Source: a virus. From it: a stretch of DNA of 49,710 nucleotides. Every line of letters starts with the position of its first letter. Position 1 is the stretch's first letter. Below are positions 20,034 through 43,873 of the stretch, in pieces. Below the pieces are notes generated by a model. The model saw nothing but the letters and a program-made list of their open reading frames with translations. It was not told the origin of the DNA and did not search any database. The DNA is taken from positions 1-49,710 of the IMG/VR virus record IMGVR_UViG_3300025667_000007; one strand, 5' to 3'. Both the position numbers and the translations under genes were made by a program.

Positions 20034-21794
20034 ATGGCACAGAATAAGAAAGCATTAAACTTATCGGACCTAGAGTTCGATGGCATTAAGAAGAACATCA
20101 AGACCTTTATGAAGGGTCAGACTGAGTTCTTGGACTATGACTTTGACGGCTCTGGTATGAGTGTAATGCTGGATGTAATGGCATATACTACACACTATAT
20201 GGGTTTCCATACGAATATGGCAGTCAATGAGGCATTTTTAGATACCGCAACGCTCCGAAATAGTGTTGTGAGTCACGCTAAGAGCATTGGATATATACCT
20301 AAGAGCGTTACAGCCGCTGAATCTATTGTTAAACTAGAGTTTGATACGACTGGATATGACCCAAGTTACATTATTGTAGAGAAAGGTACTCAATTTGTAT
20401 CTAATATTACTGGTGTACCTCTTCCATTTACCAATTTATCTACTGTTAATGTGTTTGCAGACGAGGGTGGAGAGTTCGCTGGCGAAATTAAGTTGCATCA
20501 AGGGACATTAAAAGGCCTTGAATGGACATATGACGCTACTGCGGAAGCCCAGTCCTTCTTTATTAATGATGCTACCTGTGACCGCTCTACTATTACTATG
20601 CTTGTTAATGACAAGCCTTGGGAAGTCAACAAAGTATTAAGCGAATTGACCCCTACGAGTAATTCATTCTTTGTTCAGGAAGGCCTTGATGGAGTTAGTG
20701 AGATATACTTCGGCAATGGCATCTTTGGCAAAATACCTCTTGATGGTCAATCAGTTAAAGTAACTTACCTATCTACGGTGGGTGCTCCAGGTAACTATAC
20801 CTCTACTATTAATGAGCAAGTGTTCGCACTTGAATCGACTATAGCCAACGTCTACACCGACTCCCACGTGACGGTGGACACTGTGGACATCTCTTCTCTA
20901 GGTGCGAGTGCAGAGACCACTGAAAACATTAAACTTACAGCACCAAGAGCCTATGAGAGACAAGATAGGGCAGTGACCGCAGAGGACTATAAGAATATAT
21001 TAATAGAGAAGTATCCTAATATTGATTCAATAGCCGTATGGGGTGGTGAAGATAATGACCCTCCTCAGTATGGTGCAGTATTCATTTGTATCAAGCCTAA
21101 GCACGGCCTAGAGTTGTCACCATTGACCAAACAAAAATTAACGACTGATATATTGAGTAAATACAATATGTTAGCCATAAACCCTATTATAACAGCACCA
21201 GAGTACACCTACATTGATGTTATTAGCACAGTCAAGTATAACCCTGTCTTAACCAGTTTGAGTGCTGGTGAGATACAGAGTAAAGTAATAGCAGACATTC
21301 AGGCCTTCTTTGAGGAAGAGATATCTGCATTTAAAGTGACAATGAGGTATTCCCGCCTTGGTAATACTATTGACATTGCTGATGAAAGTATATCAAATAA
21401 TTTAACGTCTGTCAAGTTTTATAAGAAGTTTTTTATTCAAGCATCCAATACCGTTGGTAACTATATCTTTAAGTATGATAATGCTATCACACCTGGTACT
21501 GCCGTGTCAAGTGTATTCGGTAATACAGATACGGGGTCCCAGTATGCTCTATTAGACGATGGCCAAGGCAATATTCTATTATACGACATTGTTAATGAGC
21601 AATTCCTCAATACAGAGCAAGGTACCATCGACTATACCAATGGAATCATAGAGTTAATTGGATTTAGACCCGTGTTAGACACTAATTCAGTAATAAGTTT
21701 GTACGCTACTCCGCAATCAAATGATATTACGGCAATCCGAAGTAATCTACTCGTACTAAATACTAGTAGTGTAACGATGCAGAGTATCAATTGA
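20034..21794 (+). CDS. 6: Baseplate wedge protein gp6
   Basis: A 586-residue protein (T4 gp6 has 660). The N-terminus LNLSDLEFDGIKKNIKTFMK, then YDFDGSGMSVMLDVMAYTTHY and NEAFLDTATLRNSVVSHAK, is the gp6 signature. APRAYERQDRAVTAEDYKN in the middle is the Baseplate_J-type core shared with TssF. Homodimers of gp6 join wedges into the inner ring. It starts six bases after gp25 and is followed after 18 bases by the 2423-residue gene. Confidence 0.92.
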   Translation: MAQNKKALNLSDLEFDGIKKNIKTFMKGQTEFLDYDFDGSGMSVMLDVMAYTTHYMGFHTNMAVNEAFLDTATLRNSVVSHAKSIGYIPKSVTAAESIVKLEFDTTGYDPSYIIVEKGTQFVSNITGVPLPFTNLSTVNVFADEGGEFAGEIKLHQGTLKGLEWTYDATAEAQSFFINDATCDRSTITMLVNDKPWEVNKVLSELTPTSNSFFVQEGLDGVSEIYFGNGIFGKIPLDGQSVKVTYLSTVGAPGNYTSTINEQVFALESTIANVYTDSHVTVDTVDISSLGASAETTENIKLTAPRAYERQDRAVTAEDYKNILIEKYPNIDSIAVWGGEDNDPPQYGAVFICIKPKHGLELSPLTKQKLTTDILSKYNMLAINPIITAPEYTYIDVISTVKYNPVLTSLSAGEIQSKVIADIQAFFEEEISAFKVTMRYSRLGNTIDIADESISNNLTSVKFYKKFFIQASNTVGNYIFKYDNAITPGTAVSSVFGNTDTGSQYALLDDGQGNILLYDIVNEQFLNTEQGTIDYTNGIIELIGFRPVLDTNSVISLYATPQSNDITAIRSNLLVLNTSSVTMQSIN

Positions 21795-21812: not shown

Positions 21813-24800
21813 ATGGCTAACGATAAATTTACTAAATCTCCTGCTAAGTTCCTATCGGTCTTTGTTGAGAGAATGGTGCCCGACTATGTACGGGAAGACC
21901 ATCCTATGTTCATCACTTTCCTTCGCAAGTATTTTGAATACTTGGAACGAGAGACTGGTGTTAATGGGGAACTAGGCGAGTACAATCAAATAACTGATTT
22001 GATTCAGAACATTGATGTTGACCACGCACTAGATAATTTCATACCAGAATTCGAGGCTAAGTATCTCCACGGTACACCACACACCTCAATAGACCCAACA
22101 GTAGAGACTACTGACAAGTCCTTCCTTGCTAAGAATATCCAACCTGTCTATAGACAGAAAGGTACTACTTCTGCCCTAGAGTTTCTATTCAGACGAGACT
22201 TTAATACAGACGTTGATACGATGTATCCAAAGCAATGGATGATGAAGGCGTCTGGCTCTGTATGGTATGAGCCACAATGGATTACGGTACTAACTGACCA
22301 AGCCACACTAGATTCTGCATCGCCCTATTTCGGCAACACGAATAACTCACACGTGGCCGAGACGGTACGGTCTATCTACAACAAAAAAATCCGTGGCCAA
22401 ATTAGCGGCGCAACGGCTTTCGTGGATATGGACGAATCAGTCTCTACTACAGACTACGAGCGACTCCTATTAACCGAAGTAAATGGCGTATTCATTAAAG
22501 ACGAAGAAATCTGGGAAGACGTTGGTACATCTGGCACTATACCCTATAAAGCACTAATCATCTCTGACGGTATTCGGACAGAGGGTGAATGTATTGTCAA
22601 TGGGCACAAATGGACAGATAAATGGATTAATATTAGTGGACATCCAAATGAAGTTCATTACCTACACGCGGCAGGGGTACACAGAGAGGGTGGTTCACTA
22701 ATAAAAGGATTAACCTCTGGTGCTACAGCAACCATTGATGGTACTGATACTGACTGGACAAAACTTAACCTATTAGAAGTAACTGGTGAGTTTGAGTTAG
22801 GTGAGAAATTATTTAACGTGGCGGCGAACAACTATTGGGAAAACCCGAGCCAATCATTCTGTAGTATCTCTACGGATTGGCCAGTTCTTCATACGTTTAC
22901 TACTGAGGTTGATTGTGTGGCGGCGTTGCACCCGGATGGGTTAGACAAGGCGAGCCCCTATTTCGGAGAGAGTGCGTTTCTTTCGTGGTACCCAGTAGTC
23001 GATATTACTAAGACCCTTCAAGACGTAGAACACAATATACTATTAAATGTAAGTAGTCCTCCTTTGACACGAGAAGAGTGTGATGCTCTTGTTAATATCG
23101 AGACTCAACCTAATGTCAAGACGGCCGTTTGGAAAACAAATGGTTACTGGCTTGACTCTGGCGGCTTCCTGTCTTCTGACAGAAAACTCCAAGATAATGA
23201 CTACTACCAAGATTTCTCTTATGTTATCCGAAGTGATGTACCTATTCAGTCGTATAGAGAAGTTCTTAAAAAACTAGTTCACCCTGTTGGACTGAAATTA
23301 TTTGCTGAGTTCTCGTTTAGGTCTACAGTTGATTTGGTAATCGAATTACCTACCGATTACGTCAAGATGATTATTGCGATATTCTCTTATCTTGATGTCG
23401 CGGTTGATATCTGGGACCAAGAGAGCGAACAACACGGTTCAGTCGGAAGGGCTCATACTGGATTTGGAGTCTTCATTGAGAAAGGCTTTGACGAATATAT
23501 CATTGAAATGATGGGTAATCTCGATTCAAGGGCTGCCTTAGTAACTCCTGATAATTGGGGTGCTCCTGGTGAACACGTAGGGGTTGATATAGTAACTGAT
23601 AAAAATGAAATCAAGACTATTGGTACCAAACTTACAGAGAAACTCTATCAAATTAATATTCTCCGTGATGAAATCAAGAACCAGATTAATGCTTGGCCTG
23701 AGAAGGTTGTATTTGAATTTACTAATCTTCTCCGAGTTCTACCTATTGAAGAGTTCCCACCTTCTGTTACTGAATTAGGCATTGAGGATAATCTAGAGAA
23801 TACCACAGACGGTAGAATGATTTCTTGTGACGTTTATGAATTGTCCGTATTCAAACATCTTTCTAGAGTTGTTGAATGGGTTGAATCGTTTATGCAAGAA
23901 GCCGAATACGCTCCTGAAAAGAGTTACGGCGCATTCGAGAGTGGTCGAGAAGACACACTAGTTAAAAAAGTATACGGGAATACAAATGACGTTATTGATG
24001 CGGTTCAGATACAGGCGTTTGATAACCCTAATGTAATCCATTCCCACGGAAGAAAGAATGGTTTCGCACCACTAGTATCTACAAGTCTTACTAAAGGACT
24101 TGAACTTCCATTGATGAGTGTTGGAGCGGCAGCGTTTCACGTTCATAGTTTTGATGGAAGTGCAATACCTAATTTAATGGTTCACGGAAAAGAAGCAACG
24201 GCTCACGGACTAAGTTATTCTCAAGCAAGAGCATTAATGAATTCTGATGCTTTTGAAATTCCAGAATTCCTTGCAGATGTTCATACGACTGCATTCTTGC
24301 CTGAAGCAACGGGTCACGTTCATAGATTTGTAGATGGTCAAATTGTAGACAGACAACGTGGTCGTGTATCTGACCCTCTATCAAGAGCCGATGCAAGAAA
24401 ATTAATTGACGGAGATATCACAGACGTAACTCTTTACGATAGTATCGGAATAACTACCAACGGGGTCCCTGAGACAGATGAAAATGGCGTCTTCCAAGGC
24501 GGTACGGTAGCCGATTCAAATGGAATTACCTCTGCACATTATCACGAGTACCTAGTCACATACGAATCAGACTGGGAAATGAATACTGACTTTATGGGTA
24601 ATCCTTGTACGCACGGATTTAGATATACGCCAGTTACTACGTGGATATGTTATAACTATAAACCAGAACTTGTGGTTGACCCTAGTTTAATTGACGGTGT
24701 TGATTATTCTGGTAACACAATGAATCTCGGACAGAATGTATTCAATGAACTTGATGATGCCACGGTTGCTACTGCAATTGGTGAAGCATCATTTACATTC

Positions 24801-27800
24801 CAACACGCACAGACTTTCCCTGCTACGCTAGTACCTAATGTAGACTGGGTAGAATTATATTCATCTAACTATATTCAACAAGTTCCTGGCTCTGGTGATA
24901 CTGGAGATTTACTAGGGGATGTTAAGATGGGTACAGGCACAGACATTGCGACTATTGTAGCGTATCCGATGGACCCAGATAAAATCTGTATTGTAGACCA
25001 ATCTGGAATCATTCACTTGATGGATACTACGTCTGGTGTCAAATCATTATTTTTCGACTACACTTCTCTTAATCTGACTATCGGAGTCGGGCCATTCGGT
25101 GCATATGATGAACGTGGCGCTCTAGGACTTGCATTCCATCCAGATTACGCAACAAACGGACTCTTGTATGTCTATTATATGACAGAGCAAGGTCCATCTA
25201 CTGGCTCATACGGATATCCTCTTTCAACTTCAATCATTGCTGAGTTCACGGCTGACGTTGCGGCAGAGACAGTTGATATTACTACTGAACGAATTTTAAT
25301 CACACAGCCACAACCTGATATGAATCATAACGGTGGTCAATTAGTATTTGGCCCAGATGGTTATCTCTATATCGGATTCGGTGACGGCGGAAATGCGGGA
25401 GATACTTCGAGTTCTAGCGGTCACGGCGGACACGGAGTATATGGTAATGCACAGAACCCTACTAACATATTGGGCACAATTCTTAGAATTGATGTCGCAC
25501 CAGACACAGTTAATAATAAACCTTATTCCATACCTTCCGATAACCCCTTCACTGGTGTAAATGCAAAACCACACGGTACTGCGGGTGCAATGTTTAGAGA
25601 AGAGATATGGGCATACGGATTAAGAAATCCTTGGAGATTCTCTTTTGCTCCAGATGGTAAACTATGGGCGGCTGATGTTGGACAAAATAAATTTGAAGAA
25701 GTAAACATTATCGAAAAGGGCGGCAACTATGGTTGGAGAGTAATGGAAGCATATCATTACTTTGAAGAAGACCAAGCAACTATTGACCAAATGGCATTAG
25801 ACCAAGGCTATGCAAATACTCAAGCATTTCTTCTTGATTTAAAATCACCTATTCACGAGTACAGTCACGGAACTGGTATTTCTATCTTAGGTGGATTCAT
25901 CTATAGGGGAAGTGACTTAACTGGACTTCAAGGCAAATACATATTCGGAGATTGGAGTACGAGTTGGGCTGGTACTACTGGTCATCTCTTTTCACTAGAA
26001 GAAAATCCTGATGGACTTTCTGCACACTTCACAATAACTCCTAATGCAATCAATGGAGCAAATCATAGTCACGAGGCTATATTAACTCCGAGTCAAGTTG
26101 CGATGGCTCAAGCGAATCCTGGAACACCAATTGTTGTTGTTCAGAGTGATACGGTTCACGCTGAAAGTTATACTCACACATTCTCCATTATATGGAATGC
26201 GACTTTCAATACTTGGAATCTGATAGCACAAACGAATATGGAGAACCACGATGTATTCACATTTATCGAATACAATGGCGATGTAGGATATACAAGAAAG
26301 AATTTATCTTTCTGGGACCCTGCAACATCTGTATTGAACTTAACAACTCACGACCAATCTATATTGACATTAGGTGAAGACACTAATGGCGAACTTTATA
26401 TGGCTACAAGAATTGGTATTGATAGTTATCAAGGAACTGGCCCACAGAATTGTGATATATACAAACTAACTGATACATATGATTCCTCTACAGAAACGGG
26501 TGCATCTTCACAAATCCCTGCTTCTGAAACGGCTCACGTTCACGGATATAAAGTAGTATACGACATTAACACAGAATTATTCTCTGCAACTGAGATATCT
26601 GATATTGAAATGACTGACTGGGATGCTTTCTTCCCTATATGGACTTATAATACTCCTGTCTCTCACTTGCATCCTGTAATTACTTCGTGGACTGGAATAG
26701 TAGATGAAAATATTCTTCTTGGTTCATCTGCTGGATGGCATTTGAATCCTCTAACTCTAGTTTGGGAACCATACGACACAGGCTCTGATACGCCTTATCT
26801 TGCTGTCGATGATGACGATGATGACGGAACATTTTATATTGAGACTGCTCCCGTAGTAGAGATACTTGGAGCAAACGAATATGGCGAGAACGCTCACATC
26901 CACTATTTCAATAGTGAGACACTAGATACATTTGGTGCTAATGATGGTAGAACGGCTGTACCGATTACGAGAATACAAGCAGAAGAACTTGCTAATGGAG
27001 TAGTAAACGCATTTTATGTTTATTCTTCTATTGAAGATTCTGGCCAGCATCAACATTATCACGTATATAAAATTATGTGGAATCTTTCTACGCAACAATT
27101 TGTTGCAGACGAAATGGCTGAGATGTGGGATGAAAACAGTACTGGAGAATGGGAAGCAGTAGATACACATCTACGAACTCACGAGCATACCCTTTTAGTT
27201 AATGGTATAACGACCCATCTTGGTTGGAATGGTACACCATTGTATACTGCTCCTGATGTTACATTATCAAATGCACACGATTGGCATAAATTAGAAGGCT
27301 CTGAACCAGACCATCTACACGCATTTAACGGAACAACATTAGACACTCTCGGAACACACACTGGCAGACAAGCATTACCATTAGATGATAATCAAGCAAC
27401 TGATTTGATTAATGGTGAAGTGACTGAAGTAAAAACATATACATCTATCTCAGGCGGAGACCATTATCACGGAATCACAATTACATACGACCCAAATACA
27501 TTAAGTTTCGTTGCGTTAGATACTGAGAAATGGGAATCATCTGACGGACATCAATTCTATTCCGCAGACCCAAGGTCACACGCACATCCAACGAACATCT
27601 CTAATCTGTTTTCACGACCAGGTTATAATGAGATGATGGAAATTCTACCGACATTTGCTTCTCCTGGATATCCTTATCCAGGTGGTTCTCACCCTCACTT
27701 TCATAATGATACAGTTGTGGGACCATTTGCAGAAGGGGCTTTGACTGGACAGATTTCTTACGCTCACGGAATGACGATTGACCAAGGTATGCAACTGATT

Positions 27801-29084
27801 GATGGTGTTGTAGATAGTGTTACTATTTACGATTCAATTGAGGGTGCTCACTTTCACGAGTACAGAATTAAATGGGATACTAATTATAATATATTCTATG
27901 CTGATTGGTCAGTGACTTGGATTAAAGGTGGCATTGAAGATTCACTTCAAGACCCTACTAAATATTATGTATCTGTAGTTGAGAATGCGGCTGAAGGACT
28001 TCACTGGCATAACTTGACAATTGACTGGAATCCAAATCTAGTTGCAATACCACAGCAAACTGGTGGTAGCATATATATAACGAAGACTACATCAACTGAT
28101 GAAGTTCTTTCTGCGGCACCGAGTGTTGTTGTTACGCAGGCTTCAACCGAATTACTACCAGTCACAACAACGTATCCAGATACGCCTGCGACTGGTGATA
28201 CAACTATTATCGTAACATATAGTGATTTAATCACAACGACAACAACGTCAACGGTCCAGATTACAACGACCACGACTGATATTATATACTATTCAGATTA
28301 TGGTACTGAAACATCGGTTGGTGACCCAGTTATTACGTCTGAAGTTACGACAAGTCAAACAACTTCCGAAGTGGAAGACTTAACGGAAAGAAAAACTTAT
28401 GTAAATAATGTCCTTCAGGCAAACAACCCGCCCATTGTTCAGATGCAACCATCGTTTATTGCTGGTATCGGAAGTCACGACCACCTGCTTTATGATGGAT
28501 GCTCTTTGGATTCAGCGGGAGTTAATGTCGGAAGAACGTGTGAACCAATTACTTTGGCACAAGCAAATGATTTGATTAATGCTCAGAATGCCAACTATGG
28601 TATTATATTCTTTGATTCTCCAAACGGAGCAAGTTCCCACTATCACGGATATACGATAAAATTTAATCCCAATATGGGAGCAAAGGGAACATTTGTAGTT
28701 GCTGGTATTTCACAATGGGATATTATACCAGGAACATCTACATATGTGCATAAATTCTCTCTAACTGGTGGATTCCACGACCACGATTACTGGATAAGTG
28801 TTGCAGATTATACATCCTTGATTGGTGGAACTTATGTAACTACACCACAGAGAGATAGTACACACGCGGCCGTATACACTCACGAATTAGTATTAGAGTG
28901 GAATGGTTCTACTTATAACATTATATCACAAACAAGTGACTATGACAACCACGATACAATATCATATTTGGGAAGTGTTCCAATTGGTGGTCAGTGGTCA
29001 CAAAACACACAGGGCTCTGGAGCGGGCGACCACGTCCACTCTACTACTGTAGACGATAGCAACGTATGGCCAGTACCGGCATAA
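21813..29084 (+). CDS. Giant baseplate/tail protein with PQQ sugar-dehydrogenase-like propeller and HxH repeats
   Basis: 2423 residues. Residues 1-160 match the wedge-associated protein of marine T4-like phages (FVERMVPDYVREDHPMF, then TTSALEFLFRRDF and a YPKQWMMKASG turn). About 1005-1400 form a full sugar/sorbosone dehydrogenase-like beta-propeller: GLAFHPDYATNGLLYVYY, H1172 in NHNGGQLVFGPDGYLYIG with GDGG, the R1271-N-P in WAYGLRNPWRFSF, DVGQNKFEEVN and GGNYGW. About 20 HxH motifs occur at 776-911 and 1575-2409, arranged in repeats of about 75 residues (HxH, then L-x-x-x-QA-x-x-LI-N/DG, Y-D-S-I, then HxHxY). A Thr-rich linker lies near 2090-2170. It is placed as a wedge/fibre connector. 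Whether the propeller binds PQQ or acts as a carbohydrate-binding domain is unknown. Confidence 0.85.
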   Translation: MANDKFTKSPAKFLSVFVERMVPDYVREDHPMFITFLRKYFEYLERETGVNGELGEYNQITDLIQNIDVDHALDNFIPEFEAKYLHGTPHTSIDPTVETTDKSFLAKNIQPVYRQKGTTSALEFLFRRDFNTDVDTMYPKQWMMKASGSVWYEPQWITVLTDQATLDSASPYFGNTNNSHVAETVRSIYNKKIRGQISGATAFVDMDESVSTTDYERLLLTEVNGVFIKDEEIWEDVGTSGTIPYKALIISDGIRTEGECIVNGHKWTDKWINISGHPNEVHYLHAAGVHREGGSLIKGLTSGATATIDGTDTDWTKLNLLEVTGEFELGEKLFNVAANNYWENPSQSFCSISTDWPVLHTFTTEVDCVAALHPDGLDKASPYFGESAFLSWYPVVDITKTLQDVEHNILLNVSSPPLTREECDALVNIETQPNVKTAVWKTNGYWLDSGGFLSSDRKLQDNDYYQDFSYVIRSDVPIQSYREVLKKLVHPVGLKLFAEFSFRSTVDLVIELPTDYVKMIIAIFSYLDVAVDIWDQESEQHGSVGRAHTGFGVFIEKGFDEYIIEMMGNLDSRAALVTPDNWGAPGEHVGVDIVTDKNEIKTIGTKLTEKLYQINILRDEIKNQINAWPEKVVFEFTNLLRVLPIEEFPPSVTELGIEDNLENTTDGRMISCDVYELSVFKHLSRVVEWVESFMQEAEYAPEKSYGAFESGREDTLVKKVYGNTNDVIDAVQIQAFDNPNVIHSHGRKNGFAPLVSTSLTKGLELPLMSVGAAAFHVHSFDGSAIPNLMVHGKEATAHGLSYSQARALMNSDAFEIPEFLADVHTTAFLPEATGHVHRFVDGQIVDRQRGRVSDPLSRADARKLIDGDITDVTLYDSIGITTNGVPETDENGVFQGGTVADSNGITSAHYHEYLVTYESDWEMNTDFMGNPCTHGFRYTPVTTWICYNYKPELVVDPSLIDGVDYSGNTMNLGQNVFNELDDATVATAIGEASFTFQHAQTFPATLVPNVDWVELYSSNYIQQVPGSGDTGDLLGDVKMGTGTDIATIVAYPMDPDKICIVDQSGIIHLMDTTSGVKSLFFDYTSLNLTIGVGPFGAYDERGALGLAFHPDYATNGLLYVYYMTEQGPSTGSYGYPLSTSIIAEFTADVAAETVDITTERILITQPQPDMNHNGGQLVFGPDGYLYIGFGDGGNAGDTSSSSGHGGHGVYGNAQNPTNILGTILRIDVAPDTVNNKPYSIPSDNPFTGVNAKPHGTAGAMFREEIWAYGLRNPWRFSFAPDGKLWAADVGQNKFEEVNIIEKGGNYGWRVMEAYHYFEEDQATIDQMALDQGYANTQAFLLDLKSPIHEYSHGTGISILGGFIYRGSDLTGLQGKYIFGDWSTSWAGTTGHLFSLEENPDGLSAHFTITPNAINGANHSHEAILTPSQVAMAQANPGTPIVVVQSDTVHAESYTHTFSIIWNATFNTWNLIAQTNMENHDVFTFIEYNGDVGYTRKNLSFWDPATSVLNLTTHDQSILTLGEDTNGELYMATRIGIDSYQGTGPQNCDIYKLTDTYDSSTETGASSQIPASETAHVHGYKVVYDINTELFSATEISDIEMTDWDAFFPIWTYNTPVSHLHPVITSWTGIVDENILLGSSAGWHLNPLTLVWEPYDTGSDTPYLAVDDDDDDGTFYIETAPVVEILGANEYGENAHIHYFNSETLDTFGANDGRTAVPITRIQAEELANGVVNAFYVYSSIEDSGQHQHYHVYKIMWNLSTQQFVADEMAEMWDENSTGEWEAVDTHLRTHEHTLLVNGITTHLGWNGTPLYTAPDVTLSNAHDWHKLEGSEPDHLHAFNGTTLDTLGTHTGRQALPLDDNQATDLINGEVTEVKTYTSISGGDHYHGITITYDPNTLSFVALDTEKWESSDGHQFYSADPRSHAHPTNISNLFSRPGYNEMMEILPTFASPGYPYPGGSHPHFHNDTVVGPFAEGALTGQISYAHGMTIDQGMQLIDGVVDSVTIYDSIEGAHFHEYRIKWDTNYNIFYADWSVTWIKGGIEDSLQDPTKYYVSVVENAAEGLHWHNLTIDWNPNLVAIPQQTGGSIYITKTTSTDEVLSAAPSVVVTQASTELLPVTTTYPDTPATGDTTIIVTYSDLITTTTTSTVQITTTTTDIIYYSDYGTETSVGDPVITSEVTTSQTTSEVEDLTERKTYVNNVLQANNPPIVQMQPSFIAGIGSHDHLLYDGCSLDSAGVNVGRTCEPITLAQANDLINAQNANYGIIFFDSPNGASSHYHGYTIKFNPNMGAKGTFVVAGISQWDIIPGTSTYVHKFSLTGGFHDHDYWISVADYTSLIGGTYVTTPQRDSTHAAVYTHELVLEWNGSTYNIISQTSDYDNHDTISYLGSVPIGGQWSQNTQGSGAGDHVHSTTVDDSNVWPVPA

Positions 29085-29174: not shown

Positions 29175-30185
29175 ATGGGTGCAATTGTAACCAGTAAATT
29201 CAGAACACAGAACTTGATGGTTTTCATCGACCAGTTCAAAACTACTGGTTCTGTTGACGACAACTTCCTGTATCTAGGGTTTGGGCGAAATGACGCTTGG
29301 CCTAATGATGCTCAAGGAAATGACGAAAGTTCAGGTAACTTTACTCTACCTGACCCTCTTGATGAGGATGAATCACAATATTGGACTGACATTGTTGGTA
29401 CCAAGCGAATTCAGAATGATGATATCTCACCCGTGCTTCCACGTATTAACTGGGAAACAGGTGATACTATCGCATTTGACGGAGATGCCGCAAACGGCAT
29501 CACAGGAATTGATGAACCTGGCCGTTCTTTTGTTTCAAAAATCGGAAGTCACAGTATTGTGATGAATTCTGAATATCGAGTTTATATGTGTACAGGCGAA
29601 CCATCTGGCGGAAAATGCTATATTGGTGGAGTCTTTGATGGCGGAACTGCTGTTTCACGAACAACTTGTGAAGGTACTTTAGGTGGACTTTGGTTACCTA
29701 CTGGTGCTTCTGAAGAGCCAACTGGCTTTACTGGAGATGCCGCTGGACTAGTTGCTCAAGCGATTACTACATCTGACAACTATACGTGGACATTCTTATA
29801 TAAACTAGAATTGAACGACATTATTAACTCTACTACCAATGACTGGATGCCAGTTATTTCAGGTACAGGAGTTCTTGCAGGGTCTGAGCAGGCCGATTTC
29901 GGTGATGTAGATTCTATATTTACAGCGAAAACTCACCACGGATTGATTCACGTTAGACTTGAGACTTCAGACGGATTCCCAGAGAACGATGACTTTCGAC
30001 AAATCGGACTCTTGCGTAATCCAGAACTTGCTGGTGGCGGAACGAAAGCCCAAGCATCCGTATATGCTGATGCAGACGTAAGTTTAGAAAGCGATAGTGG
30101 ACAGTTGATTTATCTTGAGAACAGGCGTGCTATTACTCGTGCATCTGACCAGATTGAGGATTTGAAACTCGTAGTAGAATTCTAA
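29175..30185 (+). CDS. 8: Baseplate wedge protein gp8-like with a cysteine insertion
   Basis: A 336-residue protein (T4 gp8 has 334). The start AIVTSKFRTQNLMVFIDQ, then NFLYLGFGRNDAWPND, and later a LYKLELND strand and a FRQIGLLRNP end, are the gp8 pattern of marine T4-like phages. Around residues 139-174 there is an insertion with four cysteines (MCTGEPSGGKC, then TTCEGTLGGLW). It resembles the Cys-Trp units of the other large proteins here. gp8 binds gp7 and gp10 in the wedge. AAGGAG lies eight bases upstream of the ATG. Confidence 0.8.
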   Translation: MGAIVTSKFRTQNLMVFIDQFKTTGSVDDNFLYLGFGRNDAWPNDAQGNDESSGNFTLPDPLDEDESQYWTDIVGTKRIQNDDISPVLPRINWETGDTIAFDGDAANGITGIDEPGRSFVSKIGSHSIVMNSEYRVYMCTGEPSGGKCYIGGVFDGGTAVSRTTCEGTLGGLWLPTGASEEPTGFTGDAAGLVAQAITTSDNYTWTFLYKLELNDIINSTTNDWMPVISGTGVLAGSEQADFGDVDSIFTAKTHHGLIHVRLETSDGFPENDDFRQIGLLRNPELAGGGTKAQASVYADADVSLESDSGQLIYLENRRAITRASDQIEDLKLVVEF

Positions 30186-36160: not shown

Positions 36161-39100
36161 ATGGCACATTATACAGGTCACAAATTCAGTCTATTAGAAT
36201 TAAACACTATAGAGCAACAGAAGAGTTCCTTCTTGGACTCTTTGAACATTAAATTGGATGCTCCTGACCTTCTTGTTAAGGATTTGGCTCTTATGCTGAA
36301 GTCTTTAGAGGTAATGGAAAACCTAGAACATTTGCCAGAATATAAAGATTTTCTAATTAATGTCGCAGGCCGTTCACAACAATTCGTATCACCAACAGAA
36401 ATGATTGAGAATGGTGGTCTCGATATAACATATGAATCCTCTAACCTTGTTCAAAATAGTTCTTTTGCCGCAGATGCGTTTGAAGTTGAATTGCTCAAGA
36501 ATAGTGGTTTTGATGAACCAATTAACGTAGCAAGTCCTTGGGCGAATGGTATTGCATACCAATTCGACAGGTTCTTTACTGAGGGAACTCAGATTGTTGA
36601 TGCTTACACCGATGGTCAACAAGTTGCTCTTGCTTGGTTTGAAGCAAATCTTAAACCAAATACTCAATACAAATTTTCATACGACCTTACAGTTAATGAT
36701 GTTAACTGGGACCTTATTTCAGGTGCTAAAAATATGGTCGATATGCTTGCTCCTGATACAGCGACTTTCTCAGAAGTTGGTGGTGGACCAGCCCCAAGAA
36801 CATTTGTTGCTTCTGTAATAGAAGACGAACTTCTAGTTCGTCCTACTTGTAGCAGTTGTTCTAATAATCCTTCAATCTCTGACCAAGCAACTTGTGAAGG
36901 TGTTGGCGAGACTTGGACAGTAATCACACCAGAATATCTGACTTCAATTGTCGCAATGGAAACTGCTTGTACAAGTACAGGCGGTCACTGGTTCGAAGGC
37001 GCAATTAACGACCCGAACACACAAACACATATTCTTGTCCCTTACCATCTCGAAGCGAGAGAAGGCGACACAATCATATTTAATAATCCAGATACAAACA
37101 TATTGGTTCACAATGCTGTTTCTGATGATAATATATCCTTTGCTTCTCCTGACCTTTCACCTGGTGAACAGTGGGCTTGGGTAGTAGATGGATATCACGA
37201 TTTATATTTTCACTGTACTTTTCACCCGCTCGAAGAAGGAAGATTGTCCAGTACGACTAACCACAGATTTGTTTATTCATTGAATCACGGACTAAACCCC
37301 GGCGATACAATCAAGATTCCTATTAACTATGGCGCTAATGTAGCCTTACCTGCACTATCTAATTCTTATAATATTAGCCAGATAATGCCTCAACTCTGTA
37401 CCTCAATTGGTGGAGCAGGCTCACAAAACGTAGTAGAATCACTTTATCACGACCTTTCACTTACTGACTTAGTATCATTTCAGTCTGGTGACGTTGAAAC
37501 TGACCCGAATGCTACTGTTCCAGTTGTTATCACCTTCCAAGGTGGTAATGATTCTAATACAGTAAATGCTTCGGCAGATGCGACAGTTGTTGGTGGTGTA
37601 GTAACAGCATTGACATTAAATAGTGGTGGTTCTCAATACACAAACATCCCGACAATGTATATCTCTGGCGGAGGTGGTGCTGGTGCAACTGGCACTATAG
37701 GATTTGATGCTTCAGTCACGGGTATTGTTATAGACGAACCTGGAACTGGTTATCAATCTGTTCCTACTATATCTATTTCTGCTCCATTCGGAGTATTAGT
37801 TGCTGATGGTGGAACTGCGATTCAAGCCGAAGCGACTTGTACGATTGATGCTACTGGATTTGTTGATACAGTAACAATAACGAATGCGGGTTCTGAATAT
37901 ACTGGCCCACCTGCTGTTACATTTGTTGGTGGTTCACCAACAGTCAATGCTTTAGCAACAGGCTCAGTTGATGGTAGTATTACTTCACTTACTCTAGAAC
38001 AAGGCGGTACTGGTTATGGTTCAGGCGGAAGCACAACGGGTGGCGGAGCAGTAGTTGGAGTTGGAGAGCGTAAATGGGAAGATTATATTATCACCGCAGT
38101 ACAAAAAGGTGATGCACGAGTCGATGTATTCTTTGATGACGTTAATGTTATCGGACACATACACACTGGTGAACTCACAACTGCCGAATACGCTACTATT
38201 CAAACAGGCACAAACGTAATTTCAATGTCAACGACAGACGGAACTGGCTCTGGAGATAACTCTCCTCACGCTCACTCTGTTACATATAACTGGGACCCTG
38301 CACTAAACAATGGTGCTGGTGGAATGTATATAGTTGGAATGACTGGCTCACATACTCACGGTATGTCTGAATACTATGTTATCGAAGGCGGAACTAATAT
38401 TGAATTGACTAACTTTGGTCATTATCATCAATTGCTCCTTGACATAACAGACGAAGCGACACTAAAAGCAAGTCCATTAACTGGAGTCACACAAGACACT
38501 GATGGAACTTGGAGTCATACGGGCGGAGCAACTAAGATTGGAACTTCCAATTACGGAACTTCTGACCCACAGCATTTCCATACAGTAGAATTTGGATGTA
38601 TCGACCCTGCAAATGACACATATTTAATTATTTCGATTGACCAACATATTCACGATTTTGATAGAGTATACTATCCTGGGTCAAGTCAATTCACAGTTGG
38701 AAAATATGATTTCGCTTTAGGTGGCGATGATTTGAATCCTTCTACAATCGCAACGCCTTTCACAGATATCGCAGGATATGTTAAGAAAGAACGTGGTATT
38801 GAATCAGACGGACACCAACTTAAAGCAGGCGACAAGATACACTATACTAACGTATATAACGGAATTCATCACGGTAATACAAATTACTTTGTTGACTATG
38901 TTATCGATTGGGACCACTTTGCATTAACTGAAACAGTAATTTATCCTCTAGAGAATGCGCCAGGAACTACTCCAACTTTCTTCAATGTTATTGAGAGTTA
39001 TGAAGTTGTTGCTGATATGGCATCCTTTAGATACGAAGTTGAACGAGATTTAACTAACCACGTTGGTGACCCGTTCATCTCTGGTGTAGAAGTTCTATGG

Positions 39101-42100
39101 TCTCGACCAAGAACTGTTAAATCAGTCAATCACGCATTATCAGTTGGTGATGTTGTTCAGTTACCATCTGGACCACAACCATATACGCCTACTGAATTAC
39201 CTGGCGCAATGATGAACCATACAGTTGTTGCACTTGGCGATGGTTACGGACCCACAGACGGATTTGAAATTATTGTCGATACACAATCTACTATTACAGC
39301 CGCTGACCCTGGCCAGACTACAGTTGAAGGAGCACAAGATTCTCCTTGGTTCTGGTCTTGGCACGATATGTCAAACATCTCTTACTATCCTTATCAAAGA
39401 GACATTGCAGAACACGAAGCATTCGGTGGTAACGAAGGAACAGCAGGAGGATTCGACTTATTCCGTGGTGGTAAATATACATTTGTAAATAATGCTTGGA
39501 GTTCTTCAGGACACGTTACTGCTCCTGACCCATTCACTGGTGTAATGCAAGATATGTATATGCACGCCGCTGGTATTAAAGCAATACCTGGTGGAGGCTG
39601 GGATAACCTAGTTCAAGCGGGTATGACACGAGGCTTAGGCGAACCAAATGAGGGCTATCATTGTGTTAATAAAAACGCAAGTCACGGATTAACCATTGAA
39701 ACTGGGGCTCTAAACGACTTTGTATCTCTTGAGGATAACCCAGGAACTTGGGTTTCAGACCAACCATTCCCAGTTTGTATGGGATTGAGTGGATGGTGTG
39801 AAGAACTAGATGTAACTGGTTGGTATTACAATGGAGTCGATGACTACTCAGTATGTACCGCATTAAATCCAAATGAAGATGTTGGACTAGCACAATGGAG
39901 AGTGTCACAATGGATTGGTAACTTCTCGAAAGAATTTACTTGGAAAATCCCAGAAGATTTCGGTCTAACAGGTGCTGATGGAGTATCTGGATTTGGGCCA
40001 TTCGTACCGCCAGGAGAAACTAATCTCTACTACGCAGTAGAAGATGATGGCGGACTATACAAATTTGATAAAGAAGGAATGATTGAGGGAACAAACAGAA
40101 CTCTTAACTTATACCGAGGTGCTACTTATAGATTTAGAGTCAACGCACCTGGTCATCCATTCTATATAACTACTGATGACGGAAGTCACTTTACCCCAGG
40201 CGCTTACTTCGGTGAGTATCTATTGGGTGTCACGGGTTCTAGAGGAGAAGAAGGAGCAGGGGTTCAAACTGACCCAGGTTCTAAATTCGGACTAGATGCC
40301 GCAGGAGTTCCTAAGTATGAGATTGTAGAATTTACTGTACCTTCAGTTGCACCAGACACACTGTATTATCAGTGTGGTTGGCACGCATCTATGGTTGGTA
40401 CATTCAATATTATTGACATTCCAGTAGTTAATGCTGGAGATGATATCGTAGTTTATTATCATCACGGTCAAGAAAATATGTACACTCCATTACACATTAA
40501 AGATAAAATTCAAATAGACAACGGAACAGGAAATGATTACTTCCAAGTACAACCAGAACCTGCAAATGCGTTCCCAGTAGCGGGAACTCAAGCAGACTTG
40601 TTACAACTTGGAAATCTAGTAACAGCAACTGGATTAGGAGCACTACCTAAGATTCAAGCAATGAATATTGAACTTGGTACTATCCAATATATTGACCCAG
40701 TTACAATGATAAAAGGTGCTAATTCAGAGCAATTCCTTGTAACAAATAACCACGAGGGACTTGCTAAAGTTTATATGAGTGTTGATATTAATCAGCGTTC
40801 AAATATTCTACTCGACAATGTTTCATTCAAAGAAGTTGTTTGGACAGAGACAGGTTCTTGGGAAGTAAACGGTGGTACTGCACATACAACTGATGGCACT
40901 GCCGCTCATATCGAACAACTTGTTACTGGAACAGTTCAAGACGGAATCACTTACGAAATTCAATATGATATTATTGAGTCGTTTAAAGATGTATTCGGCG
41001 CAGAGAATGGAACACTTACAGCATCCTTGATGGGCGATACAACGATTGTCGGAACTGCAAATACACTAGTAGGACATTATTCTGAAACTGTAGTCGCTCC
41101 TAATAATACTGCAATACTGAGATTGTCTAACACGGGAATAGGTAAGATTGATAATATATCAATCAGAGAACGTGTTACTGGACAGAATGCTTGGTATATG
41201 GGTGAAGGATGGCAGTCAATCAACGGTAAAGCGTATCTTGACGGAACTATTTTATCTGATACTGAGATTAATCAGACAGTAGTATTTACTCCTGGCAAAC
41301 TATATGAAGTTAAGTATACCTTAGCAGATATGGACCCAAGTGATAATGGAATGACTGGGCGATTAAGAGTTGCTCTTGGTAGTGATACTACTCATAAGAT
41401 TGCTAACTGGAATCTTGATATAGTAGACCCACTTCAAATCAATTGGACTGCTTCGGGTGTTGATGTTTCAATTACTAATGCAGTGATGAACTTTAACTCT
41501 TCTGTAAATGGAACAATGACATATACTCTAGAGAATAATTTAGTCAAAAACTCTAGTTACGAGACTACATTAGATTGTGTTCTTGAGACACATAATATTC
41601 TTACTTTCCAAGTTGGGCCTGGTCCTAACGGAAGTCACTCACATCAATTCCAGATTACACAGGTTGATGCTGATTGGTTGATGGCTGATGCAACTCGCAC
41701 AAGAACATTCCCTCAGACTGATGCCTATCACGCTGATACATATACTCACGAATTCACTATTAGTTATGATACTGGAAGTTATATTCTAGTTAGTCAAACT
41801 ATTCCTGAAGGACACGAGACACTAGCATTGATTGGAACATCTGCTAATAACCCATCAATTGAAATCTTGATTGGCGGAGTTCTTCAGAAAACGATTACTA
41901 CATCTGGTATTCATCATCTCGATTTGATAGGTGAAGCCAGTGACCAGTTTGTTCTACGAATGAATGGAACTGGATTAATCAATTCTGTATCATTACACGA
42001 AGAAGATATCCCAGTTCTTGATGCTGATACAACTGGACTTGTTCCAAGCGGACAACGTACACATCACGTTAGAGCGGGTTCTGCGGATAGCAAAATTCAC

Positions 42101-43873
42101 TTCATATCTACTGTAGATAATAATCGACCTGAAAATTATAGTCCTTATTATACTAATACGGGATTTCAAGGAAGTATTGATGATGTTTCTGTTAGAGAAA
42201 TCGAAGAGAAATGGACATTCTCACCTCAGCAAGGTGCAGAGGCTTATGTAAATCAAAATACTCAACAAATATATACATCTGGTGTCGGTACTTCTGCAAG
42301 AGGTATTGCACATATTAGTTTTGAAGTTACTGATAAATTGAATTATAAAGTATCATTCGATATTGATAGACCTACTGATTCAATCGTTAAGATTGGTCCT
42401 ACGCCTGATTCAGATGCGTATGGAAGTATGGTGATTGCGGCGAACGACACAGACGGCTCTAAAGACTTTATCTTTACTGCACCTGTTACGGGTAACGCAT
42501 TCTTAACTCTTTCAACTACTGGAAATGGATTCACTTATTGGGATAACATCTCAGTAAAATCTGTTCCTAATCTTTCATCTGATGAGTATCTATTGTTAGC
42601 ACGTTCAATGAACGTCTTCGGAGTTCCAATCGGAGGAGAAGAGCGATGGGCAAACAACCATCTTGATATGAAGAATGCAGATTACGTTGGACAGCCAATC
42701 GCTGGAATGCGTACTCTTGAATCATTCGGAGAATCTGTAGTTGAAGATTACTATGACGTTAACAAGCGTTCTAATGAAATTCTTAATCCACCAATTATGA
42801 TTTCCACTATGAGTATTGAGTTTGGTAATAGAGCAGTATCGGCAATAACCCCATCTTGTTCTAATCCATTATACTACAACTCTGTAGATTGTGAAACAAT
42901 AAACGGTGCTTGGACGGGACTCGCAACAGAATTCTGTTCTGATGGAATTTATACTACTGAAGCAGGTTGTGTAGAACCATTCGGAACTTGGACTGCAGGA
43001 AGTTGTTCAGCATCGGCAAATAATACTGAAGCAGATTGTATAATGGAAGGAACTTGTTCTAATCCAGTATATAACAATAACGAAACTAACTGTCTGGCTC
43101 AGGGAACTTGTTCTATCGGTTCTTACTATGACCAAGTATCTTGTGAAAATAATGCAGGTACGTGGACTTCAGCGAATAATACTTGGACTTCAGCGAATAA
43201 TACTTGGACCCCAGGTACTTGTACTGACGTTTCATATACGACTGAAGCAACTTGTATCGCACCAAGAGGCACTTGGACTCCTGAAGTTCCAGCACATTGT
43301 TCTGATGCTAACTTCACGACTGAAGCAGAATGTATTGCACCAAGAGGAACTTGGGATACTACAGTAGTCTCAGCAATGGCGGGAGATACAGTCGAAGTAG
43401 TTGGTGATGGTATTGACCCATTATGGACAATCACACTCGGTGGAGTCGAACAGGTTTCACAAGCAGTCTTGTTGCCTACTAAAGTTAATTTTGTTATCAA
43501 TCCTCTAACTCCACTTGGAGACCAAGAGTTTATAATTACAAATACTGATGGAGATACCGCAACTGCTCCAACCTTATTCAATGTTAGAGATACATTAAGA
43601 ATCATATCGGTCACGGAGATAGACCCGTCTAATTGGTTTATACTTGGAGCAGGATTTGTATCTGGTGGAAATGGTACTGTAGTGTGGGTAGAACTTACTA
43701 GCACTCCGGGTACAGGACCAGTGGCAAATAGTCCAAGTTACCAGTTCACAGATGTTAATAATCTGGCAATGGTCGATGACCAAGGTGGACTGGCTTCTGG
43801 AACATATGATGTAATAGTTGAAAACGCAGACGGAACTCAATTTAGAGAAGTATCTTCTCTAGTGATTCCATAA
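36161..43873 (+). CDS. Giant tail-fibre-like protein with cupredoxin-like domains, sugar-binding-type modules and Cys-Trp repeats
   Basis: 2570 residues. In order: a helical N-terminus (1-90); Cys-Trp units near 230-275; a cupredoxin-like domain at about 295-365 with H317, C352 and H355 (FHCTFHP) but no Met; glycine-rich beta repeats with GxGY turns at about 460-630; HxH-rich segments at about 665-840; a second cupredoxin-like domain at about 1300-1420 with the full ligand set H1332, C1405, H1408, M1411 (CGWHASM); three or more jelly-roll modules of the carbohydrate-binding type between 1540 and 2135; a Cys-Trp repeat array at 2233-2397; and two IPT/TIG-like Ig domains to the end. AGGAAAT precedes the ATG. 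It is probably a fibre or fibre-bearing protein facing the cell. Metal binding is inferred from motifs. Confidence 0.8.
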   Translation: MAHYTGHKFSLLELNTIEQQKSSFLDSLNIKLDAPDLLVKDLALMLKSLEVMENLEHLPEYKDFLINVAGRSQQFVSPTEMIENGGLDITYESSNLVQNSSFAADAFEVELLKNSGFDEPINVASPWANGIAYQFDRFFTEGTQIVDAYTDGQQVALAWFEANLKPNTQYKFSYDLTVNDVNWDLISGAKNMVDMLAPDTATFSEVGGGPAPRTFVASVIEDELLVRPTCSSCSNNPSISDQATCEGVGETWTVITPEYLTSIVAMETACTSTGGHWFEGAINDPNTQTHILVPYHLEAREGDTIIFNNPDTNILVHNAVSDDNISFASPDLSPGEQWAWVVDGYHDLYFHCTFHPLEEGRLSSTTNHRFVYSLNHGLNPGDTIKIPINYGANVALPALSNSYNISQIMPQLCTSIGGAGSQNVVESLYHDLSLTDLVSFQSGDVETDPNATVPVVITFQGGNDSNTVNASADATVVGGVVTALTLNSGGSQYTNIPTMYISGGGGAGATGTIGFDASVTGIVIDEPGTGYQSVPTISISAPFGVLVADGGTAIQAEATCTIDATGFVDTVTITNAGSEYTGPPAVTFVGGSPTVNALATGSVDGSITSLTLEQGGTGYGSGGSTTGGGAVVGVGERKWEDYIITAVQKGDARVDVFFDDVNVIGHIHTGELTTAEYATIQTGTNVISMSTTDGTGSGDNSPHAHSVTYNWDPALNNGAGGMYIVGMTGSHTHGMSEYYVIEGGTNIELTNFGHYHQLLLDITDEATLKASPLTGVTQDTDGTWSHTGGATKIGTSNYGTSDPQHFHTVEFGCIDPANDTYLIISIDQHIHDFDRVYYPGSSQFTVGKYDFALGGDDLNPSTIATPFTDIAGYVKKERGIESDGHQLKAGDKIHYTNVYNGIHHGNTNYFVDYVIDWDHFALTETVIYPLENAPGTTPTFFNVIESYEVVADMASFRYEVERDLTNHVGDPFISGVEVLWSRPRTVKSVNHALSVGDVVQLPSGPQPYTPTELPGAMMNHTVVALGDGYGPTDGFEIIVDTQSTITAADPGQTTVEGAQDSPWFWSWHDMSNISYYPYQRDIAEHEAFGGNEGTAGGFDLFRGGKYTFVNNAWSSSGHVTAPDPFTGVMQDMYMHAAGIKAIPGGGWDNLVQAGMTRGLGEPNEGYHCVNKNASHGLTIETGALNDFVSLEDNPGTWVSDQPFPVCMGLSGWCEELDVTGWYYNGVDDYSVCTALNPNEDVGLAQWRVSQWIGNFSKEFTWKIPEDFGLTGADGVSGFGPFVPPGETNLYYAVEDDGGLYKFDKEGMIEGTNRTLNLYRGATYRFRVNAPGHPFYITTDDGSHFTPGAYFGEYLLGVTGSRGEEGAGVQTDPGSKFGLDAAGVPKYEIVEFTVPSVAPDTLYYQCGWHASMVGTFNIIDIPVVNAGDDIVVYYHHGQENMYTPLHIKDKIQIDNGTGNDYFQVQPEPANAFPVAGTQADLLQLGNLVTATGLGALPKIQAMNIELGTIQYIDPVTMIKGANSEQFLVTNNHEGLAKVYMSVDINQRSNILLDNVSFKEVVWTETGSWEVNGGTAHTTDGTAAHIEQLVTGTVQDGITYEIQYDIIESFKDVFGAENGTLTASLMGDTTIVGTANTLVGHYSETVVAPNNTAILRLSNTGIGKIDNISIRERVTGQNAWYMGEGWQSINGKAYLDGTILSDTEINQTVVFTPGKLYEVKYTLADMDPSDNGMTGRLRVALGSDTTHKIANWNLDIVDPLQINWTASGVDVSITNAVMNFNSSVNGTMTYTLENNLVKNSSYETTLDCVLETHNILTFQVGPGPNGSHSHQFQITQVDADWLMADATRTRTFPQTDAYHADTYTHEFTISYDTGSYILVSQTIPEGHETLALIGTSANNPSIEILIGGVLQKTITTSGIHHLDLIGEASDQFVLRMNGTGLINSVSLHEEDIPVLDADTTGLVPSGQRTHHVRAGSADSKIHFISTVDNNRPENYSPYYTNTGFQGSIDDVSVREIEEKWTFSPQQGAEAYVNQNTQQIYTSGVGTSARGIAHISFEVTDKLNYKVSFDIDRPTDSIVKIGPTPDSDAYGSMVIAANDTDGSKDFIFTAPVTGNAFLTLSTTGNGFTYWDNISVKSVPNLSSDEYLLLARSMNVFGVPIGGEERWANNHLDMKNADYVGQPIAGMRTLESFGESVVEDYYDVNKRSNEILNPPIMISTMSIEFGNRAVSAITPSCSNPLYYNSVDCETINGAWTGLATEFCSDGIYTTEAGCVEPFGTWTAGSCSASANNTEADCIMEGTCSNPVYNNNETNCLAQGTCSIGSYYDQVSCENNAGTWTSANNTWTSANNTWTPGTCTDVSYTTEATCIAPRGTWTPEVPAHCSDANFTTEAECIAPRGTWDTTVVSAMAGDTVEVVGDGIDPLWTITLGGVEQVSQAVLLPTKVNFVINPLTPLGDQEFIITNTDGDTATAPTLFNVRDTLRIISVTEIDPSNWFILGAGFVSGGNGTVVWVELTSTPGTGPVANSPSYQFTDVNNLAMVDDQGGLASGTYDVIVENADGTQFREVSSLVIP
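43160..43210 (+). repeat. 21-bp tandem repeat, about 2.4 copies
   Basis: The unit (43160-43180, then 43181-43201, then a partial copy) encodes TWTSANN. Copies differ by one base. It lies inside the Cys-Trp repeat array of the 2570-residue protein and suggests recent slippage or unequal recombination. Confidence 0.85.

Follow-up and report, generated by a model that had tools for sequence, protein, structure and literature searches.

Why would the baseplate of a virus carry a propeller of the kind found in sugar dehydrogenases, and does such a domain oxidise sugars or simply bind them? The question is raised by a 49.7-kb piece of DNA catalogued as viral (IMG/VR record IMGVR_UViG_3300025667_000007; all 49,710 nucleotides are here called the window), in which a T4-type baseplate operon contains a gene for a protein of 2423 amino acids. 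The fold and the family of the propeller are known. It is the phage-tail setting for which our literature search found no description: no published phage tail or baseplate protein with a glucose/sorbosone dehydrogenase (GSDH), PQQ or cupredoxin domain was retrieved.

Baseplate setting and fold of the propeller

The gene lies between those for gp6 and gp8 and thus occupies the T4 gp7 slot (Table 1). The combination of this position with a wedge-type N-terminus is that of T4-type gp7/VrlC proteins. Parts of the protein show local similarity to a cyanophage protein annotated VrlC, and VrlC replaces gp7 in marine myophages (PMC7029224). Judged from gene order and profile matches, the 2423-aa product is most readily taken as the gp7-slot baseplate wedge protein of a T4-like phage, with the GSDH propeller as a fixed accessory module. 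Identity of the window's gp6 to that of cultured phages (Pelagibacter, Methylophilales, Desulfovibrio and Synechococcus) does not exceed about 35%.

Table 1. Positions of the baseplate genes, of the parts of the gp7-slot protein and of the putative copper domain in the window
Feature	Position	Strand	Basis or remark
Tail-tube cap gene	12232		Window operon
Hub with tail lysozyme	15022		Window operon
PAAR tip gene	19273		Window operon
gp25-type wedge gene	19620		Window operon
gp6 baseplate wedge, upstream neighbour	20034..21794	+	PF21379 E 8e-24; phrog_219 E 4e-153
Whole gene for the 2423-aa protein with GSDH propeller and His-rich repeats, putative baseplate wedge protein of the T4 gp7 slot	21813..29084	+	ORF; gp6 upstream, gp8 downstream
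Baseplate-wedge N-terminal region, residues 1-530	21813..23402	+	phrog_17744 baseplate wedge E 2.6e-45; PF23786 Baseplate_wedge 31.9 bits, cut-off 27
First His-rich (HxH) repeats, residues 743-935, N-terminal of propeller	24039..24617	+	HxH count; DNA repeats D1, D3, D4
Predicted GSDH propeller, blades 1-5, residues 1030-1411	24900..26045	+	PF07995; model ma2d37b3ff4d8; VIA Z 39.0 to 3a9g and HHIP
H1172, equivalent to catalytic base His144 of sGDH and His363 of CcPDH	25326..25328	+	Alignment; no change in 21 gp7-type, 6 fibre-type and 88 cellular sequences
GDGG, residues 1190-1193 (D1191 = sGDH D163)	25380..25391	+	Alignment
R1271-N1272, equivalent to sGDH R228-N229 at the PQQ quinone oxygens	25623..25628	+	115/115 counted sequences; mapping on sGDH
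DVGQNKFEE loop, residues 1288-1296, equivalent to the sGDH loop holding the catalytic Ca by backbone (G247/P248)	25674..25700	+	G kept; P248 replaced by Q1291
Extended loop GDWSTSWAGTTGH, residues 1379-1391, at the sGDH K377 position	25947..25985	+	Alignment
94-residue His-rich insert, residues 1412-1505, between blades 5 and 6	26046..26327	+	Resembles last C-terminal repeat
Predicted blade 6, residues 1506-1557, no R406/R408 equivalents (Q1515, I1517)	26328..26483	+	Model, alignment
C-terminal His-rich (HxH) repeat region, residues 1558-2423	26484..29084	+	17 HxH motifs, 5.1% His
gp8 baseplate wedge, downstream neighbour	29175..30185	+	PF09215 E 3.5e-30
Putative plastocyanin-like (cupredoxin) stretch of ORF 36161-43873, possible electron acceptor	37007..37276	+	His39, Cys74, His77 (A4 numbering); PDB profile match

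Residues 1100-1379 match PF07995 (GSDH) with an E-value of 7.2e-33 and 114.7 bits against a curated cut-off of 25, and the sGDH-type NCBIfam model TIGR03606 scored 76 bits, under its cut-off of 434.55. The fold was modelled from 66 phage and cellular relatives (model ma2d37b3ff4d8; mean pLDDT 88.5, pTM 0.91), which superseded a model from 23 phage rows with a pLDDT of 68 and poor active-site loops. The predicted structure has six blades and superimposes on solved members of the family over 320-360 residues with Z-scores of 33-39: VIA Z 39.0 to the PQQ-dependent sugar dehydrogenase 3a9g (rmsd 2.7, 334 residues) and 39.0 to human HHIP, 37.4 to E. coli Asd, 36.7 to the PQQ-bound Streptomyces Asd 3das and about 33 to Acinetobacter sGDH with PQQ and glucose. 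Fungal AA12 enzymes gave about 26-28 (27.7 in one comparison). Residues from about 1030 to 1557 (24900-26483), a longer stretch than the Pfam match, are therefore predicted to form one complete six-bladed GSDH propeller. Chance similarity was rejected on the E-value (7e-33) and the fold, and contamination or a mis-joined contig because about 30 contigs, 55-80% identical, have the same fusion.

A preliminary description of this DNA had placed a GSDH-type propeller inside a baseplate protein, and the PF07995 match, the gp6/gp7-slot/gp8 synteny and the wedge N-terminus bear this out. It had named a predicted fold other than a six-bladed one as grounds for giving up the idea; six blades are predicted. 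The extent that it gave, 24830-26015, was too short, because blade 6 lies beyond the 94-residue insert.

His-rich sequence lies on both sides of the propeller and within it. Positions 414-485 of the propeller profile, the columns of the insert, match residues 2319-2387 as well; these form the last C-terminal repeat, and the insert is therefore a His-rich unit of the virion type placed inside the propeller. It is present in all 23 gp7-type phage sequences aligned and is absent from cellular and fibre-type relatives. The two repeat regions and the insert hold 22 HxH motifs together, in repeat units of roughly 100-150 aa. The large C-terminal region differs among relatives by indels, and no match to its repeats was found in cultured phages. 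The HxH repeats resemble YHYH-type domains reported from marine myophages; those of related marine phages have been described as carbohydrate-binding (PMC7029224), and iron binding was proposed for the His-rich tail fibres of an Alteromonas phage (PMC11705849). Other additions occur in these proteins. Cys-rich tandem units (CSDxxFxxNxxxCxxxGTCSD...) are found in differing propeller loops of four relatives (L010, L011, L018 and L021) and also near the C-terminus of the tail-region protein encoded by ORF 36161-43873 of the window, and five relatives (L019, L025, L029, L156 and L162) have several hundred added residues at about residue 160-185 of gp7, within the wedge N-terminal region.

Active site and cofactor pocket

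Conservation was counted over 115 sequences, namely 21 gp7-type phages, 6 fibre-type phages and 88 cellular relatives. D1191 and G1290 have one exception each, both in cellular rows, and H1172, GDGG, R1271/N1272 and DVGQ are identical in the 23 aligned phage sequences. The His, Asp, Arg, Asn and Gly together with an acidic pair are fixed in gp7-type phages despite an overall identity of 55-80%. W1381 and W1385 do not vary in either phage group. In the mapping on sGDH, Gly247 corresponds to G1290, Pro248 to Q1291 and Asp252/Glu253 to E1295/E1296, so that the catalytic Ca site, by sequence mapping, keeps its glycine and has Gln in place of P248. His144 and Arg228/Asn229 of sGDH and Asd have their counterparts in H1172 and R1271/N1272, and through the same mapping so do His363, Arg430 and Asn431 of AA12, for which the active-site residues of CcPDH (PMC6881789) served as reference.

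The residues that bind the PQQ carboxylates in sGDH are missing: K377 is replaced by S1382, R406 by Q1515 and R408 by I1517. Candidates for taking over their role are R1101, H1352, W1381 and W1385. Over the 115 sequences, neither phages nor cellular relatives have a conserved basic residue at 1514-1517. AA12 has PQQ contacts at Arg621, Arg273, His539 and His560; for Arg621, which is conserved with the bacterial enzymes, the R406/R408 positions likewise lack a conserved Arg here. Because the ligands are absent in phages and cellular relatives alike, their absence is a trait of the whole HHIP-like branch rather than decay in the phage. For the same reason the label "PQQ sugar dehydrogenase" exceeds the evidence, and a PQQ enzyme is not established by these alignments. 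The fungal enzyme CcSDH likewise lacks several of the PQQ-binding residues known from prokaryotes and still depends on PQQ (PMC4133262). The absence of the ligands therefore reduces, rather than abolishes, the likelihood of PQQ use by the phage propeller.

The motif positions given in the preliminary description (H1172 in NHNGG, GDGG at 1190-1193, GLRNPWR with R1271/N1272, and DVGQN at 1288-1292) were recovered unchanged. Its statement that the protein follows the whole sGDH/Asd pattern holds for the His, Asp, Arg, Asn and Ca-loop Gly and fails at S1382, Q1515 and I1517. It had also asked whether the PQQ-contact residues are in place: His, Arg, Asn and the Ca-site glycine are, and the carboxylate-binding Lys/Arg/Arg are not. 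That description was thus right in kind, a GSDH-family propeller in a baseplate protein, and went too far in the identity of the cofactor.

Occurrence among phages

The same fusion occurs at 34 IMG/VR loci, three of which are essentially the phage of the window; 23 of the loci were aligned. The gp7-propeller fusion is conserved across about 30 IMG/VR contigs of uncultured T4-like phages. A single clade (SH-aLRT 100) holds the gp7-type propellers; it falls within the HHIP-like branch of cellular proteins, which has the GLRNPWR/DVGQN motifs, and groups with 34 cellular rows (SH-aLRT 99). The propeller has evolved under purifying selection (dN 0.14, dS 1.04 against relative L004; more distant pairs are near saturation), and each record examined carries one GSDH.

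A second virion scaffold carries a related propeller. In L201-L207 it makes up the C-terminal part of proteins of 680-710 aa whose N-terminus is of the tail-fibre type, and neither gp8 nor a window-type gp7 N-terminus was found in these records, which may be fragments. One example (L203:5107-7128) consists of about 290 aa of tail-fibre-like N-terminus followed by a propeller that keeps the H, R and N; fibre-type GSDH genes are flanked by tail-fibre proteins of 950-1500 aa, one with an Mtd_N domain. The sister grouping of gp7-type and fibre-type propellers has a support of 79/21, so that one acquisition and two acquisitions are both compatible with the tree.

The module can also be missing. Three loci from three metagenomes (L135-L137, 97-100% identical mutually) encode a gp7 of 711-714 aa that has neither the propeller nor nearly all of the repeats, next to gp6 and gp8 proteins 78% and 84% identical to those of the window. 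Right after its stop codon and before gp8, an out-of-frame ETDVWPK-PS is found, which is the end of the long form in relative L230. The short gp7 looks like a deletion of the propeller and repeat module; if it is one, a baseplate would be built without need of the module. Repeats collapsed during assembly are a possible source of the short form, although the three datasets agree on it.

A pattern scan of genome contigs returned no loci with phage-only patterns and 80 with mixed patterns. The cultured-phage matches to the propeller were confined to Acinetobacter "phage" MD-2021a records, and the one examined has bacterial gene surroundings; this record (L036, CAKLQH020000008.1) carries mutY, rarA and yliI and is probably bacterial chromosome. 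An IMG/VR record with a repeat-type N-terminus and a GSDH on a long branch (L208) may be cellular or another type of virus.

Possible oxidation or binding of host glycans

With such a domain, the particle might act on sugars of the host surface or hold on to them. The preliminary description had named both an enzyme carried on the virion and a propeller reused to bind sugars. Our leading reading, put forward tentatively and at slightly less than an even chance, is that it is a virion-borne domain oxidising host-surface or extracellular glycans; we prefer this to a propeller that only binds, with a slight tilt towards a redox enzyme. The propeller would be displayed at the baseplate rim, as the position of its gene suggests. 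Sugar hydroxyls of these glycans would be oxidised with H1172 as the base, and a Ca-bound quinone-type cofactor would sit with R1271 and N1272 at the propeller axis; PQQ itself could serve as this cofactor if other residues bound it, in the manner of fungal AA12 enzymes. A copper site may accept the electrons, and the plastocyanin-like domain of a tail-region protein encoded nearby is one example. The receptor glycan might in this way be marked, weakened or gripped by oxidation during adsorption.

Several lines of evidence are consistent with an oxidising domain: the family and fold, the baseplate setting, the conserved fusion, the PQQ dependence of CcSDH despite its missing ligands, the catalytic core fixed in phages and in 88 cellular relatives, with an R-N pair that HHIP has lost, the purifying selection, the same family on the second scaffold (L201-L207), the redox and sugar fusions of cellular relatives and a conserved plastocyanin-like domain in the same phages. 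In a set of 31 cellular relatives with several domains, Copper-bind or Cupredoxin_1 occurs in three, cytochrome c in at least one and a 3-keto-disaccharide hydrolase in two; a Natrinema relative is fused to plastocyanin and a Pseudoalteromonas relative to the starch-binding CBM26, and the gene of a Halobaculum relative adjoins that of a HiPIP. These fusions and neighbours suggest that the HHIP-like branch is engaged in the redox chemistry of sugars. The 3-keto-disaccharide hydrolase fusions of some of these proteins also hint at oxidation of glycosides at C3, not C1.

The putative copper domain lies in ORF 36161-43873, a tail-region protein two genes downstream of gp8. The 90-aa stretch is 71-100% identical across 53 loci of the same phages and was not found in cultured phages. 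The type-1 Cu ligands His39, Cys74 and His77 (Cys-x2-His) are fixed in 22 phage sequences, and PDB profiles matched a CuNIR cupredoxin (E 2e-4) and a blue copper protein (E 0.008), with no Pfam cupredoxin model over its cut-off. It is a likely but not firm plastocyanin-like cupredoxin and a candidate partner of the propeller. More cupredoxin-like stretches are present at 40106-40417 and 46032-46307 (GHPF...YYQCGWHASM; PF13473 at a sub-threshold E of 0.0015 at 46032), and similar CxxHxxM stretches terminate fibre proteins beside the fibre-type GSDH in L201-L203. Against an oxidising domain stand the absent K377/R406/R408 equivalents, our search for a biochemically proven enzyme in the HHIP-like branch, which found none, the presence of HHIP, a binding protein, among the best-matching solved structures, and the weakness of the plastocyanin match, as such domains may be general virion decorations. 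A short redox chain of the virion's own, in which the wedge sugar dehydrogenase takes electrons from host-surface glycans and hands them to the plastocyanin-like copper domain before or during DNA injection, is unlikely.

The strongest competitor, a quite possible reading, is that the propeller is a non-catalytic receptor- or glycan-binding domain like HHIP, which binds Hedgehog and heparin, and takes part in adsorption jointly with the His-rich repeats. Both sequence and structure comparisons place HHIP among the best PDB matches, the HHIP-heparin structures 7pgm and 7pgn included; the PQQ-carboxylate ligands are absent, the propeller is embedded in HxH repeats, YHYH-type domains of related marine phages are described as carbohydrate-binding (PMC7029224), and the module can be missing (L135-L137). 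However, the R-N pair is lost in HHIP (GLHDP) and kept in the phage propellers, the H, D, R, N, G and acidic pair fixed at 55-80% identity are not needed for binding alone, and cellular relatives carry redox and sugar-processing domains.

It is improbable that the propeller is structural filler or decoration, captured by recombination among repeat-rich tail genes, whose invariant residues reflect folding of the GSDH core. The residues invariant in phages are equally so in cellular relatives, so that some may be structural, and the C-terminal region varies by indels and has a deletion variant; two different virion scaffolds, long-term retention under purifying selection and the keeping of polar pocket-lining residues nevertheless speak against it. 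That the module is made but stays outside the virion, as cargo or as a lysis-released enzyme read through with gp7, is very improbable: virion display is suggested by gene position, the propeller shares one open frame with the wedge N-terminus in a gene inside the baseplate operon, and the fibre-type copy is likewise among tail genes.

To our knowledge, nearly all phage-borne glycan enzymes are hydrolases, lyases or deacetylases. A glycan-oxidising tail domain, if true, would be a new receptor treatment by phage, and the virion would come to rely on both a cofactor and an electron acceptor. A propeller restricted to binding would still show a dehydrogenase fold recruited onto two virion scaffolds. 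The system also makes it testable whether the large HHIP-like branch of "PQQ-dependent sugar dehydrogenases" of bacteria, archaea and animals uses PQQ at all.

Compared with known systems, the window has the gene order gp25-gp6-X-gp8 in common with the gp7/VrlC slot of cyano- and pelagimyophages, but no cultured phage of the collection has its propeller or C-terminal repeats. With Asd (3a9g, 2g8s, 3das) and sGDH (1c9u, 1cq1) the propeller shares six blades, the His, Asp/Glu, Arg-Asn, Ca-loop Gly and the NYGW core; it differs in having no K377/R406/R408 equivalents, in the change of P248 to Q, in the fusion to a baseplate protein and in the His-rich insert before blade 6. AA12 enzymes (CcPDH 6jt5, TrAA12 6h7t) share the fold, His, Arg and Asn/Asp but are 12-19% identical, and CcPDH keeps the R406 equivalent (R621) absent here. 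AA12 genes are among the auxiliary metabolic genes of mangrove soil viruses, on viral contigs annotated sorbosone/glucose dehydrogenase, and the accessible portion of that report describes no virion fusion (PMC6460857). The GSDH propellers of giant viruses (Pithovirus LCPAC202 and LCPAC104, Marseillevirus LCMAC102; BFVD) are virus-encoded like the phage domain but are not phage tail proteins, and the viruses are unrelated. The closest branch, by sequence and by tree, consists of HHIP and the bacterial and archaeal GLRNPWR/DVGQN "PQQ-dependent sugar dehydrogenases". These cellular relatives are about 35-48% identical to the phage propeller and occur as stand-alone proteins or with cupredoxin, cytochrome c or CBM domains, whereas the phage propeller is built into a protein of the baseplate.
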